Assembly (NCBI GenBank): GCA_021798935.1
Contig: JAJZBL010000002.1
Coordinates: 62,001-126,000, forward strand
Reading direction: 5' to 3'
DNA length: 64,000 nt
Source: Microcaldota archaeon
Lineage (GTDB): Archaea > Micrarchaeota > Micrarchaeia > Micrarchaeales > Micrarchaeaceae
In this document: in pieces, positions 27,189 through 48,089 of the stretch
Position numbering within the stretch: position 1 is the first letter of the stretch
Layout: each line of letters opens with the position of its first letter
The notes under the pieces: model-generated
What the model saw: the letters and a program-made list of their open reading frames with translations, nothing else
Database searches by the model: none
Told to the model about the DNA's origin: nothing
Position numbers and translations under genes: made by a program

Positions 27189-28096
27189 GCCTTTTTGAAT
27201 CCATGCTGGCCGAATTCGTTCCTAAGGCCTGCAAGAACCCTCTTTCCCATTCTATAATCTTGGCGTGATTCGTATCTTTCGTACAATGCATTTGTTATTG
27301 CATGGAATGGTACTGAGAATTCAGCTGCAGTTTGCACAGCCCATTTTCCTTCTCCTGTATCCTCTACAAATGGAGATATCTCCTTTAGCTTTTCATCCTT
27401 TGACAGTAGGTTGAATGTAAGGTCCATCAGATAGCCCCTTATTACAGATCCGTGCGTCCATACCTCTGATACATCCTTGAGGTTCACCGAATCCTTGTAA
27501 GGTCCACTGCTTATCAAGTCAATACCCTCTGCAATAGATTCCATCATTCCATATTCTATCGCGTTGTGCACCATCTTCACAAAGTGGCCAGATCCAGCGG
27601 GGCCAATATACTTGTAGCCATCTGCAACACTGACATCTTTAAAGAGGCTCTCAAGCTTCTCAAATGTTTCCTTGTCGCCTCCAACCATTATCGACATCCC
27701 ATTGCGTGCACCTGATGGCCCTCCGCTGCATCCCGCATCCGCATATTCTATTCCTTTTGATTTAAACATATTATAAAGTTCAACGGAGTTCTTGTAAAAA
27801 GCATTGGAGCCATCAACTACTATATCTCCCTTATGAAGATATGGAAGTATCATCTTTGAAAACTGGTTTGTTACTTCTCCTGCTGGAAGCATGAGCCATA
27901 CTATCCTATCGCCATTTACCATATTAAGCAACTTTATTGGATCATCTGAAACCACTGCACCCTCTGCTTCAACCTCTTTCCTTGGTTCTTCAGACCTATT
28001 GTATGCATATACTTTATACCCCTTTGAAAGCATATTCAAAACTGCATTCTTGCCCATCTTCCCCAAGCCCAAAAATATTATTTCTTTATCTGACAT
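27185..28096 (-). CDS. gnd: 6-phosphogluconate dehydrogenase, decarboxylating, GndA-like
   Basis: 'IIFLGLGKMGKNAVLNMLSKGYKVYAYNR', 'DAGCSGGPSGARNGMSIMVGG', 'GSGHFVKMVHNAIEYGMMESIAEG'. Confidence 0.9.
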   Translation of the reverse strand: MSDKEIIFLGLGKMGKNAVLNMLSKGYKVYAYNRSEEPRKEVEAEGAVVSDDPIKLLNMVNGDRIVWLMLPAGEVTNQFSKMILPYLHKGDIVVDGSNAFYKNSVELYNMFKSKGIEYADAGCSGGPSGARNGMSIMVGGDKETFEKLESLFKDVSVADGYKYIGPAGSGHFVKMVHNAIEYGMMESIAEGIDLISSGPYKDSVNLKDVSEVWTHGSVIRGYLMDLTFNLLSKDEKLKEISPFVEDTGEGKWAVQTAAEFSVPFHAITNALYERYESRQDYRMGKRVLAGLRNEFGQHGFKKA

Positions 28097-29663: not shown

Positions 29664-29900
29664 GTGTGGCAAGTGGGCAGCTTACCGAAAGGAGGAAGCT
29701 CTCCCCATGCTAAGATGATCAAAAAAAGCTTAAGGCTTGATTCGGAACAGAAACGGCACCTTGAGACCATTAAATGCTATGACACTACGAGCTAGGAGGA
29801 GAGGATGAAACGGCCGATGTGACCATCGATGTGCATGCAAGGTTTAAACCGCTTAGTCGAATGCTGCCAAAAACAGAAGGGAGGCTACAACTTGCCACAC
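29664..29900 (+). ncRNA. rnpB: RNase P RNA
   Basis: 11-bp perfect P1 (GTGTGGCAAGT/ACTTGCCACAC); CR-I-like GAGGAAGCTCTCCC and CR-V-like ACAGAAGGGAGGCTACA form P4 with a bulged U (AGC-U-CUCCC : GGGAG-GCU); CR-II-like ACAGAAACGGCACC; GATGAAACGGCC. Confidence 0.9.
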
Positions 29901-29914
29901 TTTAATAATTTATT

Positions 29915-30032
29915 GGCGAGGGCGGGGTTTGAACCCACGACCTCTAGATTTCTCGTCATCGCTATAAAAGCTCATCACTCATAATGCTATGCATATGAGT
30001 CTAGCGCTCTAACCAGGCTGAGCTACCTCGCC
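29915..30032 (-). tRNA. tRNA with CAT anticodon (Met, or Ile2) containing a ~44-nt intron
   Basis: Reverse strand GGCGAGG TA GCTCAGCCTGGTTAGAGC G CTAGA CTCATA[intron]A TCTAG ... GGTTCAAACCC ... CCTCGCC; intron TATGAG pairs with CTCATA of the anticodon arm. Confidence 0.88.
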
Positions 30033-31743: not shown

Positions 31744-31799
31744 ATTCTAACCTTTTATTTAACGTAGAACAGGACATAATTTCTTAGTAAAGCACAAGT

Positions 31800-31894
31800 G
31801 CGACCGTCGGGATTTGAACCCGAGTTTTTGGCTGTCTTTTGAACCTTCCTTTTCAATGGAAGGCCAAAGTCCTACCAGGCTAGACTACGATCGC
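31800..31894 (-). tRNA. tRNA-Gly(TCC) containing a ~23-nt intron
   Basis: Reverse strand GCGATCG TA GTCTAGCCTGGTAGGAC T TTGGC CTTCCA[intron]A GCCAA ... GGGTTCAAATCCC ... CGGTCGC; intron GGAAGG pairs with CCTTCC. Confidence 0.87.
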
Positions 31895-40460: not shown

Positions 40461-40850
40461 TTGGTACTGATTCATAAAATCGATAGAATAAAAAATTATA
40501 TTAGTTTCCTTAAAGTAGTTACGATTCCTTTCATACTGCTTACTCTTCTTATATCTACATATTCTAACGCTTCTCCTGCAAATAACAGTACAATAGGAGT
40601 TGTATCTCAATTAGGCTATGTGAAGAGCCTGCTTTCACAGATTGGGCCTATATTGAGCGCTGTGCTATTCATATTAGCTGGGATATTCTATGCTATAGGC
40701 CAATTGATGACACCTGAGAAAAAGGCTTCATTCCATACAACTGCTATAAATCTGATAATAGGTGCAATAATAGTTGCGGTGCTTAGCTTTACATCTACAA
40801 CTTTGGCTACTGCTTCAACGCACTTCCTATCTAACTCTACGCTTAAGTGA
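40461..40850 (+). CDS. VirB2/TrbC-like (CedA1/TedC-like) pilin candidate
   Basis: Signal-peptide-like N-terminus (...LLTLLISTYSNASPA) then two hydrophobic helices separated by a short polar turn 'GQLMTPEKKASFHTTAIN'. Confidence 0.6.
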   Translation: MVLIHKIDRIKNYISFLKVVTIPFILLTLLISTYSNASPANNSTIGVVSQLGYVKSLLSQIGPILSAVLFILAGIFYAIGQLMTPEKKASFHTTAINLIIGAIIVAVLSFTSTTLATASTHFLSNSTLK

Positions 40851-40856
40851 CTATTA

Positions 40857-41876
40857 ATGCTCGGATATAACATAGACATATATGCACTTAGTATAATGAT
40901 AGCAATAGGAGGTATACTACTTGGCTTGGGCTACGCATTTGATGATATTAACTTAAAGAAGTATGGAAAAAAAGAGCTGCTCGAATCTTTAGTAAATGGA
41001 ATAATAATAGGTACCCTTGTACTTGCTTTTGGGCAAGGCGGGATTATATATAATGTTATGGAATCGACAGTTACTTCAGTTTCACCTGACCTAAACTGTG
41101 GGGCAATGTCAAATAACTATGCTATATGCTTTGCATATAACTTTCTCATTAACCCTGCTTATATATCAATAATGGGAAAATCATACCCATCGCTTATAGA
41201 TGATTCACTTGGCCTACTTATACCAATATCAGCAATTTATACAGTATTGGGAATAATAGCTTCAATGAGCTTTAGCTTAGGTGTAATATCAATAACCCTT
41301 CATTCTGTTATGGCTCCTCTTTTAAGTGTCGGAAGAGATATAATAGAAATTCTGACCTTTGCCAATATATCAATATACACACAGGCAGCATTATTGAAAG
41401 TTATAAGCTTAGTTTCTTTACCCCTTTTAATGCCTATTGGGATAATTTTGAGAAGTTTCTATTTTACAAGGAGGCTAGGAGGATCTATAATAGCACTTAC
41501 CCTAGGCCTGTTTGCAGTTTTGCCTATGATGTATTTATTAAATGCTGTAATAATATCAGATTATTCAACTGCATCTGCATCCAGCATAGCAACACAATCA
41601 TTAGGAACTGCTACAAATTTTGAAAGTTCTATATTCTCTGATGTAATGGCAAATTCTGCTGCTGGAAAAGGGGCTATATCATTTTACAGTTCACTTGCTA
41701 ATTTTATTAAGGAAATGAACCAATTTTTTGAATCTATAGTTAATGCTTTGGCATTATTAATTATAGAAATTGTTTTTCTCCCTATCCTGAGCATTATAAT
41801 GACTATTATATCAACTAGAGAACTTGCACGCATACTTGGTACTGAGATTTCGTTTGGGAAATTTGATATATTTTAG
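40857..41876 (+). CDS. VirB6/TrbL/CedA-like polytopic membrane protein
   Basis: 339 aa, multiple TMs, located immediately after the VirB2-like gene. Confidence 0.55.
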   Translation: MLGYNIDIYALSIMIAIGGILLGLGYAFDDINLKKYGKKELLESLVNGIIIGTLVLAFGQGGIIYNVMESTVTSVSPDLNCGAMSNNYAICFAYNFLINPAYISIMGKSYPSLIDDSLGLLIPISAIYTVLGIIASMSFSLGVISITLHSVMAPLLSVGRDIIEILTFANISIYTQAALLKVISLVSLPLLMPIGIILRSFYFTRRLGGSIIALTLGLFAVLPMMYLLNAVIISDYSTASASSIATQSLGTATNFESSIFSDVMANSAAGKGAISFYSSLANFIKEMNQFFESIVNALALLIIEIVFLPILSIIMTIISTRELARILGTEISFGKFDIF

Positions 41877-42631
41877 TGGTTGCAATGGATTACAGAAATT
41901 TGAATGAAAATTTGATATACATCATTTTGCTGTTCTTGAATTTTATCTTAATTATAATTGCAGCATTGACCTTGAATCTGGCACTTATAGCGTTGGCTTC
42001 AATATCTATCCTAGTTTCATTTTTCACAATCAGGTTTTGGGACTATATAAACGCATTCATAATAAAACATTCAAATTTTATAGAATTATTTAATGGGTAC
42101 GAATTGGATTTGGATTCTTCTATAACGGTTTCTTCTTTCAACGGTATATATAATGCGATTTCCTTGGGGTATTTTAAATTTGAGGACAGCGCTGAATTTG
42201 ACAGGGATAAGATAGAATCAATTATAAAATCAAATTCAGTACCGTTCAGATTTGTCATCAATATTGAACGGGTAAATCAAAACAGGATCTTGAATGATTT
42301 AAAAACTAAAAAGCACATCAAAGAGATAGAACTAGCCAACCTCTCAGGCAATAAGGATTTGGCAAAAGCCAGCATTATAAGGCATAAGATAGATGTTATC
42401 TCGCAGGATATAGAGGATATATCTGCTGGAACCTCATTCAAGCTTGTATACTACCTGATTGCTTATGGCAGTTCGGAGAATAAGTTTAGGGCTGAAACGG
42501 TGGCCAGAGAAAATCTGGAGAAGATTGCTGCGAGCTTTAGCTCCGCATTCAAATGCACCGTAGAGAATTTGAATGGAAGCGAACTCATAAACTTCTTAAA
42601 GTTTGAATCGATGATATCTAATGATTTATAA
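41876..42631 (+). CDS. two-TM protein with soluble domain; candidate VirB3-VirB4 N-terminal-domain-like subunit
   Basis: N-terminal paired TMs, then 'PFRFVINIERVNQNRILNDLKTKK...GTSFKLVYYLIAYGSSENKFRAETVARENLEKI'; 11-nt overlap with the ATPase gene. Confidence 0.5.
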   Translation: MVAMDYRNLNENLIYIILLFLNFILIIIAALTLNLALIALASISILVSFFTIRFWDYINAFIIKHSNFIELFNGYELDLDSSITVSSFNGIYNAISLGYFKFEDSAEFDRDKIESIIKSNSVPFRFVINIERVNQNRILNDLKTKKHIKEIELANLSGNKDLAKASIIRHKIDVISQDIEDISAGTSFKLVYYLIAYGSSENKFRAETVARENLEKIAASFSSAFKCTVENLNGSELINFLKFESMISNDL

Positions 42632-43973
42632 TAAATTTTATAATATATCAAATTCCGGAGTACTGGCAAAGCAGATAAAAATATCTACAATGTCAGAATC
42701 AAAATTATGCGATAGCAGTACAGATGGATTTTATATAGGGAAAAGTTCCATATATAATTTGCCTTTTTTCATAGATTTTGACAAGCTTATGAATAAGCAT
42801 GTTATCTCTTTGGGAATGACGGGTTCAGGAAAGACAAACTTGCTCAAGAACCTTATACTTAAGCTCTTTGCTTATAAATCTGGCACATCTATAGCTATAT
42901 TTGACTGGTCTGGAGAGTACTCCGATATAATTAGTTATGTCCATGGAATTAGGTTGGACTTAAAAAACCAAGGAATTAACCTTCTTGATTTCTATGGAAC
43001 GGATTTATTCAAGCCATTGGTTTTTGAAGCATTAAAGGGCTTTTGCGGGCTTGATGGCAAGGACTGCAACAATGTTTATGATAAAATTGAAAAAAGATTG
43101 GGTTCGAAGGATTATAATTTTGATAAGAGTATTTCAAAATTTTTCCAAAGTGCAAATAAACAGGGCACAGGCAAAAATCTTTTGGCACTTGACCGTTATA
43201 AATTATTTGATCAATCTTCCAACATAGATTTGAATAGTATTTTGAATGGATTCGTATGCTTTGATTTGTCAAATTTGGATGAATTTGGAAAAGCTAATTT
43301 TTCTAAACTGCTTTTGCTTATGCTAAAACTTACGATATACAGGAAAGGCATAAACTCAGGCAAAACAAGTTATTTGGTTTTTGATGAAGCTTGGAAGTAT
43401 ATTAAAGAGGATTCAATATTGAATGGGCTTTTTAGAGAAGGCAGGAAGTACGGAATAAGCCTTCTTATAGCAACACAGATGGCTTCGGATGTATCCAATG
43501 AACTCCTATCAAACGCCGCTTCGGTATTCATATTCCGGTTGCATAAGGAAGATTATAAAGTTTTGGGCAATTACGGAATCGATGCAGATAGATTCAGCAT
43601 GATAACAGAGAATCTTGGCAGAGGAAGCTGCTTGGTAAGCCAGATATTGAAAGGAGGCTCATTTTCTCAAGCAATCATAAGAGATGTAAAGCATTTCTAT
43701 CTATCAGATTACCTTTTAATTTTAGGTGATAAAATGGGCTATATATCAAGGATCAAATTTAAAAATGCTGTTGAAAAGTACTGTGCAAATCCAGATAAGG
43801 TTATTCGTTTCATGGAGGAAAATGAAAAGGTGGATTTATCAAAACTTATAGAGTTGCTTATTTCGGAAGGCAGTGGCAGAATTGCAATTGTCACATTGCT
43901 GCGCTCTGTTGATATCGATGATTCAGATATAGCAAAGGGTTTTGATAATTTGACTGCTGCCTATTTTGAGTGA
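42621..43973 (+). CDS. HerA/VirB4-family ATPase (CedB-like motor)
   Basis: Walker A 'SLGMTGSGKTNLLKNLILKLF', 'IAIFDWSGEYSDII', Walker B 'SYLVFDEAWKYI', 'GISLLIATQMASDVSNELLSNAASVFIFRL'. Confidence 0.85.
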   Translation: MIYNKFYNISNSGVLAKQIKISTMSESKLCDSSTDGFYIGKSSIYNLPFFIDFDKLMNKHVISLGMTGSGKTNLLKNLILKLFAYKSGTSIAIFDWSGEYSDIISYVHGIRLDLKNQGINLLDFYGTDLFKPLVFEALKGFCGLDGKDCNNVYDKIEKRLGSKDYNFDKSISKFFQSANKQGTGKNLLALDRYKLFDQSSNIDLNSILNGFVCFDLSNLDEFGKANFSKLLLLMLKLTIYRKGINSGKTSYLVFDEAWKYIKEDSILNGLFREGRKYGISLLIATQMASDVSNELLSNAASVFIFRLHKEDYKVLGNYGIDADRFSMITENLGRGSCLVSQILKGGSFSQAIIRDVKHFYLSDYLLILGDKMGYISRIKFKNAVEKYCANPDKVIRFMEENEKVDLSKLIELLISEGSGRIAIVTLLRSVDIDDSDIAKGFDNLTAAYFE

Positions 43974-43978
43974 TTTAA

Positions 43979-44611
43979 ATGCAATTTTTTTCTTCTTTTA
44001 TAGCAAAAGGGAAGCTGCTTACAGACTTCCATTCTTTATCAGAAGATATAAGCTATCTGCATATATTCAAAATGGAGAGTTATGGCACTTCATTGGCTTA
44101 TTCGCTAGATATGAAGGATGAGAAATTGTCGCTTGTGTTCTTCACAAATAAGATATCCTATAGCTTTTATTACGACAATCTTTCTGATAACTATTACCTC
44201 CTCAATTTTTCTAGATTTATAAGGGTTATAAATTATTTGAAAAGGCACTATTCGATAGATTTTGAATCTATTTATCCTTACTTGTCAAATTCTTTTAGCA
44301 TAAAGTTAGAATGGACAACGCTTGATTACTTTAAAGATGTTGGAAAGTCACAAGGCAATATTGCAGATTATTTGAAGAATCTCTCAGATGCTAATTTCAA
44401 CTTAAGCGAGAGATTAATGAGGTTAAATAAGTCAAATAAAGATATTTTAAAAGAGCTTTATACATATAAAAGATTCTCTCAGGATGTAATATCAAACTTG
44501 AATAAGGCCAATTTGGAAAAGAGAAGCTTGGTGGAGATAGCAAGCAAGGCATTAGGGATTGATCCGAACTTGGCACATGAAGTGTTGAAATTGCTTAATT
44601 ATAGGTTATAA
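43979..44611 (+). CDS. hypothetical soluble protein in T4SS-like cluster
   Basis: 210 aa ORF 5 nt after the ATPase stop; no recognised family. Confidence 0.6.
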   Translation: MQFFSSFIAKGKLLTDFHSLSEDISYLHIFKMESYGTSLAYSLDMKDEKLSLVFFTNKISYSFYYDNLSDNYYLLNFSRFIRVINYLKRHYSIDFESIYPYLSNSFSIKLEWTTLDYFKDVGKSQGNIADYLKNLSDANFNLSERLMRLNKSNKDILKELYTYKRFSQDVISNLNKANLEKRSLVEIASKALGIDPNLAHEVLKLLNYRL

Positions 44612-44612
44612 T

Positions 44613-45287
44613 ATGGATAGCAAATTATTGCTTGCAGTATTTTTGTTGCTGCTTGTTACCTTATTCCTTTCATTGCATTACCTAGCCTATCTGCATGCTA
44701 GCTACTTCATAATAGGAATATTGGTGCTTGTCGCATCCATATTGCTTTCAAATCTTGCAAATGAAGCCAACAGCTATAGATATGATATGTTCGGCAGGAA
44801 AAAGCAGACTTTTACAATTACTGACCAATTTTTAAATGTAATTGGCATTAAAGGCAGTAAAATTCCAAGAGACCTGAGTTATATAATCAGTGCTTTGGAA
44901 AAAAGTTACCAGTTGCCTATTGAAGATGAAGTTTTCAGAAAATATGAATTAAGGAGTGCATTCGCCAAGAAAGGGTTTTTAATATATGAAGATAGGGTAT
45001 TTGAAGATAGTGGGTTTATCCGAGAAAAGCTTATAGCAAGCAAGGTATATGAGAGATCTATTTATGAGAAGAATTTAGTTTTCTCTGATATTGATAGGAC
45101 TCTTGCTTTAAATAAAGTCGTTGATAACCTTAGCCTTGACAGAAATGCTGCAATTGATTCGAAGTTCATATTTATACTTAATGAAAATGAATTGGCAAAG
45201 CTTAGCTACCTGCTAAATCAGCCTTATAAAAACAATTCCCTTTTGGCATTAAGGATTATTTTTGGGGATGTTAAGGTGATAAGTTGA
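44613..45287 (+). CDS. two-TM membrane protein with soluble C-domain in T4SS-like cluster
   Basis: N-terminal paired hydrophobic segments; starts 1 nt after the previous stop. Confidence 0.6.
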   Translation: MDSKLLLAVFLLLLVTLFLSLHYLAYLHASYFIIGILVLVASILLSNLANEANSYRYDMFGRKKQTFTITDQFLNVIGIKGSKIPRDLSYIISALEKSYQLPIEDEVFRKYELRSAFAKKGFLIYEDRVFEDSGFIREKLIASKVYERSIYEKNLVFSDIDRTLALNKVVDNLSLDRNAAIDSKFIFILNENELAKLSYLLNQPYKNNSLLALRIIFGDVKVIS

Positions 45288-45478
45288 TAATCTTGAATTT
45301 ATTGGTTAAAACCGCTTATGGAATATCTTTTGAATTGATAAGTTTATCTTCTATCCTAATATTTACTAGTTTCAACGGCAGCAGAAAACGTGAGCTCAAG
45401 CTTGGCATAGATATAGCTTATGGAAGTACATTGCTCTTGGCAATTGCGTTTTTTATAAACATGATATTATGGCATTAA
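45284..45478 (+). CDS. small two-TM protein in T4SS-like cluster
   Basis: 64 aa, 4-nt overlap with upstream gene, two hydrophobic segments. Confidence 0.5.
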   Translation: MIILNLLVKTAYGISFELISLSSILIFTSFNGSRKRELKLGIDIAYGSTLLLAIAFFINMILWH

Positions 45479-45762
45479 ATATAACAAATAACATTTACCA
45501 CCATAAAAGGGGCAAGAATTTATTAGACTCATTGCTTTTTGCAGTATCTATCCTGCTGTTCCTTCTTCCAATGCCAGCTATAGCCTCCATTTTATTTGGC
45601 ATAAATATACTCACATTTATAGTAATTTGGATGCCTGCAATTTACCTCCTTTCTTACCTTTATGTAAAATTCGAAAGAATTTATATACAGAAAAAATATT
45701 GGCTTGCAATAGTTGCAATGCAATCTTTAGCTTTAATTATATTGATGGTGATCTTATGGTAA
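45469..45762 (+). CDS. small polytopic (~3 TM) protein in T4SS-like cluster
   Basis: 97 aa; overlaps both neighbours. Confidence 0.5.
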   Translation: MALNITNNIYHHKRGKNLLDSLLFAVSILLFLLPMPAIASILFGINILTFIVIWMPAIYLLSYLYVKFERIYIQKKYWLAIVAMQSLALIILMVILW

Positions 45763-48089
45763 ATGGCAAATTTTGCATTGACTCTGTGCCGGATAATGGC
45801 ATTGATTCCAGCCTTTTCTTTGATGCAGTTAAAGGGATTCCATTTGCTATAATATTTGATTTCAGCGATATAAAAACATATATTCAATTATTCACAGATA
45901 ACCCTGATTTTTATTCAAAAGGTATTGCAAGTAGGATACCTGGATTGGAACTGTCAAAATCTACAGATACTGATTCGAAAGGTAATTTCTTTATTGGATC
46001 CTTTCTTCGCATAAATATCGATTATGAAAAAGACCCAAAATCAAGCAATAGTGTGTTTGAAGACTGCTTCAATTTAGGCATAGAAAAAGGAATTTTTGGA
46101 GTATTATTTTTCCCAGTTAAAAAGGAAGAGATAGAATACAGCAGCAGAGAAATTGAGCGTTCCCTTACAGCAATTGACACAAAAGAAACTCGTTCAATTA
46201 ATGCAAGGATGGCAAGCTATAATTCTTCATATTCTACGCAGCACGATATATTTTACAATTCAGATGATAGGATAGCACTTAATTATATCTTGAATTCGAT
46301 AAATAAGGCAATTCTTAAAGGAAGCTCTATTTATAAAACTTTATTTTTTACAGATGCAGAAAGCTCTTACATAAAACATTATTTAAGCAGTAAATTTCTG
46401 ATTTTGGAAAGTAGCTCCATATCTAATGCAGGCATGCCAGATATTATAAGTTACCTGTCAAAATCCAAACAAATAGCCTTGGGAAGCGATGAACTTGGCT
46501 ATTTGCTCGATTTTGAAGGCATGCACAGGATAAGCCATGTTATTGAAACAGGGATTTCCCCTTCAAAAGGAGATATTTGCATAGGCTCAATCATGAAGCA
46601 TGCAGTATTGGATACAAAGATTAATTTGTCGCTGGATCGCTCAATTTTGAATTTGGGTGTCCTAATATCAGGCCTTCCAGGCACAGGAAAAACTCATGAG
46701 TCAATGGCAATTGTAGAAGAAGCAATTAAGGTTGGAGTTCCAACAGTGGTGATTTCATCAACAAAGGAATGGGATGGCTTTGCCTATGACAACAATTTAT
46801 ATTGCCTTAAATTGCTAAATGACAAAGTGCCTATTAATTTCTTCAGCTGCCCAAATAGATCAAATAGGGATAAATTCTGGAGGGATCTCGCAATGCTCCT
46901 TGCTTCTGCTTCAGATGCAGGACCTTACAGGAGACCATTAGAAAAATGTATGCTAGATGCTTTTAGAAGAGTTTACAAATCTACAGCGAATCCTAATCCT
47001 GCAGATGCAATAGATGAGATAATAAAATCTATAATAGATATGCATGGAAAGCGTACAAACACAGGAGTCAAATATACTAAGCATGGTGAAAACATAAAGG
47101 CAGCTCTTGAAAACCTTATAGACCTATTAAGCAATGCTGAATATTCCTCTCAATTCGGGGTAATGTTTGAGGATTTGATCAGCAGAGGTATAGTCTTTGA
47201 TGCATCTGAAACCGGTTTTGGAATGAAAAAGCTTATTTACTCCCTTATATTAAACCAGTTCTACTCTATAATCTCCTCGATGGATGAATCGGGCGACAGC
47301 AGCCTTAGGATGCTCTTAGTGGTAGAAGAAGCAGAACTTGTATTCAAAGATGATGACTCGCCTGCAGTAGAAGATATGAAGACACGTATACAAGATTTTA
47401 GAAAAAAGGGGGTGGGGCTTATATTCATAACACATGGAGCTTTGGAGGTAGATGCAGACCTCCGGAGACTACTTCAAGTCAAGCTTTATTTTAGGCAATC
47501 ATCAGATATGGCACCTTATGCAGTCAAAGATCTTCTTTCTGACATTGATAATGATAGGTTAGTATCGAAGATAAAGCATATGCCTTCAGGTATATTCGGG
47601 TTAAGCACAATCTCAAAAGAAGGCTACAATAGGTATCCTATTGATTTGGAATTCTTAAGGTCCCTATTTTATAATTATAAAGGCAGCATAGATGGAAAAC
47701 TTATAGAAAAGTATATCGATTCCAAAGGCTTATCCATACCTGAATATGTATATGAGAATCTGAAATTTGAAGGTTATCCAAAACTCAGTTCAAATGATTC
47801 CCAATCTGAGAAAAATTACAAGATCTTGCAGAAGATACGTAGGCTAGCTGTGAAATACCTAGGAAACAAGATTTATGATGTACTATTTGATAAGCTGGAG
47901 TACCAGTTTTATTTGATTAAAGGCAGAGTATATGATTTGGAATTGACAACAGAAAATGAGGTATCCTTGTTGCATCTTCCTATAAAGCCATCAGGTGAAG
48001 GAATAAGCCTTGAATTTGTTTTAAAGTATGGGAAATTGGATATAGCTGAGAAGAAAAGCAATTTTGGCAAATCCCTTAAGGATTCCTAG
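45756..48089 (+). CDS. second HerA/VirB4-family ATPase with N-terminal domain
   Basis: Walker A 'LISGLPGTGKTHESMAIVEEAI', 'VISSTKEWDGFAYDNNLY', Walker B 'MLLVVEEAELVF', 'GVGLIFITHGALEVDADLRRLLQVKLYFR'. Start set to ATG 45756 inside ORF 45627-48089. Confidence 0.85.
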   Translation: MVNGKFCIDSVPDNGIDSSLFFDAVKGIPFAIIFDFSDIKTYIQLFTDNPDFYSKGIASRIPGLELSKSTDTDSKGNFFIGSFLRINIDYEKDPKSSNSVFEDCFNLGIEKGIFGVLFFPVKKEEIEYSSREIERSLTAIDTKETRSINARMASYNSSYSTQHDIFYNSDDRIALNYILNSINKAILKGSSIYKTLFFTDAESSYIKHYLSSKFLILESSSISNAGMPDIISYLSKSKQIALGSDELGYLLDFEGMHRISHVIETGISPSKGDICIGSIMKHAVLDTKINLSLDRSILNLGVLISGLPGTGKTHESMAIVEEAIKVGVPTVVISSTKEWDGFAYDNNLYCLKLLNDKVPINFFSCPNRSNRDKFWRDLAMLLASASDAGPYRRPLEKCMLDAFRRVYKSTANPNPADAIDEIIKSIIDMHGKRTNTGVKYTKHGENIKAALENLIDLLSNAEYSSQFGVMFEDLISRGIVFDASETGFGMKKLIYSLILNQFYSIISSMDESGDSSLRMLLVVEEAELVFKDDDSPAVEDMKTRIQDFRKKGVGLIFITHGALEVDADLRRLLQVKLYFRQSSDMAPYAVKDLLSDIDNDRLVSKIKHMPSGIFGLSTISKEGYNRYPIDLEFLRSLFYNYKGSIDGKLIEKYIDSKGLSIPEYVYENLKFEGYPKLSSNDSQSEKNYKILQKIRRLAVKYLGNKIYDVLFDKLEYQFYLIKGRVYDLELTTENEVSLLHLPIKPSGEGISLEFVLKYGKLDIAEKKSNFGKSLKDS

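Follow-up and report, generated by a model that had tools for sequence, protein, structure and literature searches.

A nine-gene chromosomal locus of Micrarchaeota that probably encodes a relaxase-less machine related to type IV secretion systems

A compact cluster of nine genes in the genome (857 kb, ten contigs) of a small, probably host-dependent Micrarchaeota archaeon may bear on the question of how DPANN archaea trade DNA and other material with hosts. The cluster lies at 40461-48089 of the window, by which we mean the whole 64,000-nucleotide stretch analysed here (contig JAJZBL010000002.1, positions 62,001 to 126,000, assembly GCA_021798935.1). A first-pass annotation had described it as a divergent apparatus of the type IV secretion system (T4SS) kind in a DPANN archaeon; its pilin, its ATPases and its synteny support this description, and a T4SS-like apparatus is very probably what the locus encodes. 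Its best overall explanation, which we favour with moderate confidence, is a chromosomal T4SS-like machine that lacks a relaxase and would span a single membrane; that DNA is its main cargo has slightly less than an even chance.

The nine open reading frames (ORFs; O1-O9, Table 1) run in one direction and are either no more than 6 nt apart or overlap slightly, just as first described except that the ninth had been extended too far upstream: its likeliest start is ATG 45756, not TTG 45627, because homologues and the overlap with the eighth ORF point there. Ratios of nonsynonymous to synonymous substitution rates (dN/dS) were 0.06-0.20 for the eight genes compared with G151, a genome of the same genus that we take to be Ca. 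Mancarchaeum acidiphilum Mia14. These eight genes are under purifying selection and are not chance ORFs. O8, too, is intact there (homologue in L037).

Table 1. Genes of the locus and their proposed identities; spans are those first called, save that O9 was originally 45627-48089, and transmembrane (TM) helices were counted by hydropathy.
Gene	Proposed identity	Span	Strand	TM helices	Basis and remarks
O1	VirB2/TrbC-type pilin, 129 residues	40461..40850	+	signal-like helix + 2	family matches; dN/dS 0.11
O2	VirB6/CedA-like channel protein, 339 residues	40857..41876	+	7	homology to array proteins; TM count
O3	two-TM protein with an alpha/beta domain	41876..42631	+	2	AlphaFold2 topology; fold and profile matches; start may be ATG 41885
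O4	VirB4/CedB/HerA-superfamily ATPase domain lacking an N-terminal domain	42621..43973	+	0	P-loop near residue 65; profile matches
O5	soluble subunit with coiled coil and probable C-terminal winged helix	43979..44611	+	0	winged helix read from alignment
O6	two-TM protein with fast-evolving soluble domain	44613..45287	+	2	position conserved, sequence poorly so; dN/dS 0.20
O7	small two-TM protein	45284..45478	+	2	position conserved; dN/dS 0.07
O8	small three-TM protein	45469..45762	+	3	position conserved
O9	second VirB4/CedD-like ATPase with N-terminal domain of ~300 residues	45756..48089	+	0	profile matches

The assignment is carried by the pilin and by the two ATPases, all of which are homologous to known T4SS or Ced components. 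O1 has a hydrophobic, Sec-like N-terminal signal ending in ..YSNASP, followed by a hairpin whose two helices are linked through a basic loop (PEKK/PPDKK). The Pfam family T4SS_pilin was matched by 17 of 26 O1 homologues (best E 4e-7), which bears out the VirB2-like pilin of the first-pass annotation; the window protein itself matched T4SS_pilin at E 1e-4 and TrbC at 7e-4, both under the curated cut-off, and its single match in the PDB was the R388 pilin TrwL (E 0.15). O1 provides the VirB2-type pilin, and O4 the VirB4-type ATPase, expected of the broad T4SS superfamily. O4 matched CedB (5e-21) and VirB4 CD1110 (2e-14) as well as TraC and HerA, and among PDB sequences HerA (1e-24) and VirB4 (3e-12), while scoring far under all equivalog cut-offs. 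The CedB and VirB4 models were matched by all 26 O4 homologues, and the Walker A and DEAW motifs are conserved. O9 matched CedD at 7e-6; its homologues matched CedD in 12 and VirB4 CD1110 in 7 of 26 cases, and profile-profile alignment with hhalign joined O9 to VirB4 at E 7e-11, N-terminal region included. The two HerA/VirB4 ATPases originally proposed are thus borne out.

The architecture of the first ATPase offers a clue to the role of its neighbour. In 11 O4 homologues the P-loop lies at residues 58-66, as compared to 238-489 in plasmid VirB4/TraC, and the N-terminal domain of VirB4 is therefore missing from O4. It can probably be supplied by O3. When an AlphaFold2 model of O3 was compared with 350,542 PDB chains, 7 of the top 17 matches were chains of the R388 T4SS VirB4 complex (8rtb, 8rtd and 7o43; E 0.03-0.6), and hhalign aligned O3 with a PrgI+TrsD fusion at E 2.7e-4 (reversed control 0.08); Pfam and PDB sequence searches with O3 gave no informative match. 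Together, these comparisons suggest, with moderate support, that O3 probably combines VirB3 helices with a VirB4 N-terminal domain detached from the O4 ATPase. The earlier description of this third protein as one with two TM helices is accurate as far as it goes, and the R388 fold matches refine it.

Further matches to the O2 profile, at C5:142.5-149.2 kb, revealed something beyond the first-pass annotation: this genome holds two paralogous systems, of which the locus is one. The sister cluster (C5:140519-153996; L136) begins 14.5 kb past the right edge of the window and encodes six O2-like proteins of 6-8 TM helices in tandem, along with a homologue of the pilin, two O3-like proteins, one O4-like ATPase and one O5-like protein. 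The six array proteins are homologous to one another and to O2 (E 2e-17 to 8.5e-27); O2 aligned with each of them by hhalign at E 2e-17 to 4e-25, against at least 0.005 for reversed controls. In this wider O2 family the N-terminal hairpin is similar to the pilin (E 2e-5 to 7e-5, against at least 0.1 for reversed controls), a resemblance that is weak for the window O2 alone (0.0018 versus 0.12 reversed). A pilin-like N-terminus has been reported to relate CedA to CedA1 and VirB6 to VirB2 (PMC9905601). We infer that O2 is a probable VirB6-type channel: of the VirB6/TrbL-like identity first proposed, the polytopic, seven-helix topology and the familial pilin-like hairpin stand, and a direct similarity to VirB6 could not be shown. 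A copy of O2 with an in-frame TAG, beside O1, O3 and O4, occurs at G083 C1:384094-385065 and in L154, and may reflect decay or recoding.

The array appears to be a widespread arrangement. Exactly six members were recognized by profile in nine arrays from several families, and three more arrays have a polytopic ORF in sixth place; the O3a profile matched 262 of 302 genomes of the phylum, though this profile also picks up O3-type paralogues. Evolution of the ATPase is slower in the array cluster than in O4, O5 is conserved in both cluster types (with no family match), and the O3-O4-O5 module is in some other families located away from the six-VirB6 array. The window locus thus appears to be a compact paralogue of a larger system found in nearly all of the phylum. 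Two kinds of variant were also seen: compact pilin-O2-O3-ATPase clusters (ATPase of about 500 residues) without an O9-type long ATPase in L139, L140, L141 and L155, from other Micrarchaeota families, which may be further variants, and three tandem pilin genes immediately upstream of O3-O4 in L191 and L202, compare the VirB2 arrays reported in Patescibacteria.

The order O1-O9 is kept in 27 of 42 O9-centred neighbourhoods, in two families of one Micrarchaeota order, while the flanking genes vary; synteny with the ATPases, the lack of which the first-pass annotation had said would count against it, is conserved. Several of the remaining 15 neighbourhoods are interrupted by contig ends or have O9 apart from O1-O5, and an O8-sized small ORF is sometimes still found beside such a separated O9. 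Strong homologues of O9 occur in 108 of the 165 genomes of the order and of O2 in 112; both are present in 97, one only in 26 and neither in 42 (Fisher odds ratio 24.7, uncorrected for ancestry), and genomes with only one of the two are on average 77% complete. The O9 tree separates the two families with 100/100 support, and the locus has therefore been inherited vertically at the family level. It is retained in genomes of about 0.8-1 Mb.

How might such a machine work? In the mechanism we favour, O1 pilins would be exported and assemble with membrane lipid into a short pilus or conduit atop an O2 pore. O3 would hold the cytoplasmic motor at the membrane, with its two helices in the place of VirB3 and its soluble domain in that of the VirB4 N-terminal domain. 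The VirB4 ATPase itself, now detached, would be O4; O9 would serve as a second motor of VirB4 type, much as CedD stands beside CedB, and O5-O8 would be accessory subunits. When the cell touches a neighbour or host, DNA or another macromolecule would most likely cross the envelope. Import or exchange of DNA, as in Ced and Ted, is the leading guess because of the analogy with those systems and the gene exchange reported between Mia14 and its host (PMC5498576).

Several results weigh against this account. O2 has no direct match to bacterial or plasmid VirB6 among Pfam or PDB sequences, and hhalign comparisons of O2 with pLS20, pKEF9/pNOB8 and Spiroplasma proteins gave no signal above reversed controls. 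The AlphaFold2 inputs were the window and L036 sequences only, giving two-row alignments: the O2 model failed (predicted local distance difference test, pLDDT, 35), and that of O3 is of low confidence (pLDDT 55, predicted TM-score 0.47), its VirB4 matches reaching E 0.03 at best with a TM-score of about 0.26. When profiles are compared, O3 aligns weakly with PrgI/TrsD, and one reversed control reached E 0.005.

What else could the locus be? Its gene set resembles a conjugation module, and genomic islands of Mia14 have been called likely conjugative elements (PMC5498576), so that it could belong to an integrated conjugative element as its transfer module. This idea is largely refuted and its residual probability close to negligible. 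Relaxase PF03432, the one relaxase family searched for, is absent from the genome (one positive control), as is the coupling-protein family T4SS-DNA_transf (PF02534), which was detected in five controls; the neighbours are core-chromosome genes, roughly two thirds of the order has the locus, and O9 has no match in 72,556 plasmid and 50,697 phage records. We rejected a mobile element on the absence of relaxase and coupling protein, the vertical tree and the lack of plasmid or phage matches to O9. Since neither a relaxase nor a VirD4-type coupling protein was found and inheritance is vertical at the family level, the locus reads as a domesticated chromosomal T4SS; a VirD4-type coupling protein is not universal among such systems. 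The membership of both ATPases in the HerA/FtsK superfamily and the DNA-repair gene Nre that adjoins the locus in this genus might suggest a non-secretory, membrane-bound HerA-like complex for DNA processing or repair, with the pilin-like and VirB6-like proteins as anchors. We think this very improbable: repair HerA is matched by O4 and O9 no better, and in part less well, than CedB, CedD and VirB4; a pilin family match and a VirB6-type signature also speak against it, the cluster holds no nuclease such as NurA, and the Nre neighbour is not conserved.

The main rival concerns function. As proposed for Patescibacteria, a T4SS descendant could serve as a symbiont-host interface, attaching to the host and injecting protein effectors or taking up host macromolecules, with DNA transfer secondary. 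The patescibacterial epibiont Ca. S. epibionticum reportedly cannot grow epibiotically without PrgI, TrsD and a pilin array (PMC12102498), ARMAN cells contact Thermoplasmatales via pili-like structures (PMC5864196), and a similar role has been given to giant proteins with VirB4 domains in nanohaloarchaea (PMC10266531); moreover, the locus is present in host-dependent relatives such as Mia14 and has been kept in small genomes. No effector or adhesin gene is linked to it, however, its flanks vary between genomes and are housekeeping in the window, and a coupling protein of the VirD4 Pfam family is lacking. By analogy, we regard such an interface as a possible but rather unlikely primary role. 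Equally tentative is a broader proposal, that Micrarchaeota run two T4SS-like machines, a near-universal one with a pore of six VirB6 paralogues and a compact one with a single VirB6 and a second motor, both for contact with hosts or kin; if true, they would parallel the machines of Patescibacteria and Rickettsiales.

The T4SS-like, relaxase-less machine that we favour may help explain the exchange of material between these archaea and their hosts or among the archaea themselves. Mia14 has exchanged genes extensively with its host Cuniculiplasma, and the main text of its genome paper names no T4SS-like machine (PMC5498576); conservation of the locus in the presumed Mia14 genome makes the question testable in Mia14-Cuniculiplasma co-culture. 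The locus would extend domesticated archaeal T4SS beyond Thermoproteota, with VirB4 apparently split into an anchored N-terminal domain and a free ATPase. The six-VirB6 array poses a structural puzzle: in R388 a VirB6 pentamer faces a VirB3 hexamer (PMC12624023), and a six-member VirB6-like set therefore merits structural study. We speculate that the six paralogues form one hetero-hexameric ring, one of each, matching a six-fold ATPase. A search of the open-access literature, with supplements, subscription papers and preprints outside its scope, found no description of the locus or of the array, so that earlier annotation is possible; the main text of a 2025 study of 163 Micrarchaeota genomes is without mention of secretion, pili or VirB.

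Around the locus, the window carries genes for a peptidase, an MFS transporter, a glycosyltransferase, Nre, M24, TsaD and a RIO kinase, a core-chromosome setting. G+C is about 0.36-0.41 to the left of position 28000, close to the RNase P RNA gene, and drops to about 0.30-0.38 to its right. Positions 29665-30032 and 31799-31894 hold an archaeal RNase P RNA adjoining a 119-nt tRNA match and a second tRNA match of 96 nt; both tRNA matches look intron-containing, and ARAGORN called the second alone, leaving its anticodon unassigned.

How does the locus compare with known systems? Like Ced of Sulfolobales (CedA, CedA1, CedB, CedD, CedE), it is chromosomal and combines a pilin, a probable VirB6-like channel of 6-7 TM helices with a pilin-like N-terminus (PMC9905601) and two HerA/VirB4-type ATPases. 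Membership in Ced, which the first-pass annotation had entertained, does not hold by curated thresholds: O4 scores 75 bits for CedB against a cut-off of 700, and for CedD O4 scores 64 and O9 25 against 600. O4 also lacks the N-terminal domain, which is here probably carried on a separate O3, and no counterpart of O5-O8 is known from Ced. The VirB4 N-terminal domain is shared out in Ced between CedB and CedD (PMC11868833), and O3/O4 together with O9 may have solved this division of labour in another way. The locus resembles Ted of Thermoproteales (TedA, TedB, TedC) in its Sec-type pilin signal and in having a probable VirB6-like and a VirB4-like partner in one place (PMC9905601), and differs in its apparently split VirB4 and second ATPase and in the absence of ParA, Rad50 and HerA-helicase neighbours.

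Among bacterial systems, the single-membrane MPF_FATA T4SS, found in monoderm bacteria and Patescibacteria (PrgI, TrsD, VirB4, VirB6, VirB2-like pilins), offers a parallel in gene order: on Gram-positive plasmids VirB6 is followed by the two-TM PrgI/VirB3, by TrsD (the part corresponding to the VirB4 N-terminal domain) and by VirB4, as O2 is followed by O3, which would hold both parts, and O4. Patescibacterial versions mostly lack a relaxase (PMC12102498). In MPF_FATA, VirB4 has its own N-terminal domain and TrsD and PrgI are separate genes, whereas the P-loop of O4 lies too near its start for such a domain, and in O3 the VirB3-like helices and N-terminal domain are apparently fused and fully separate from the ATPase; the window locus also has a second ATPase, O9, and no lytic transglycosylase or VirD4-family protein. 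The rvh T4SS of Rickettsiales is a double-membrane system with VirB8-VirB10. It belongs to obligate symbionts and has several divergent VirB6 paralogues, which we infer to be of independent origin from the archaeal ones; the five copies in most Rickettsia (PMC2653234) are the nearest parallel to the six-protein array of the sister cluster.

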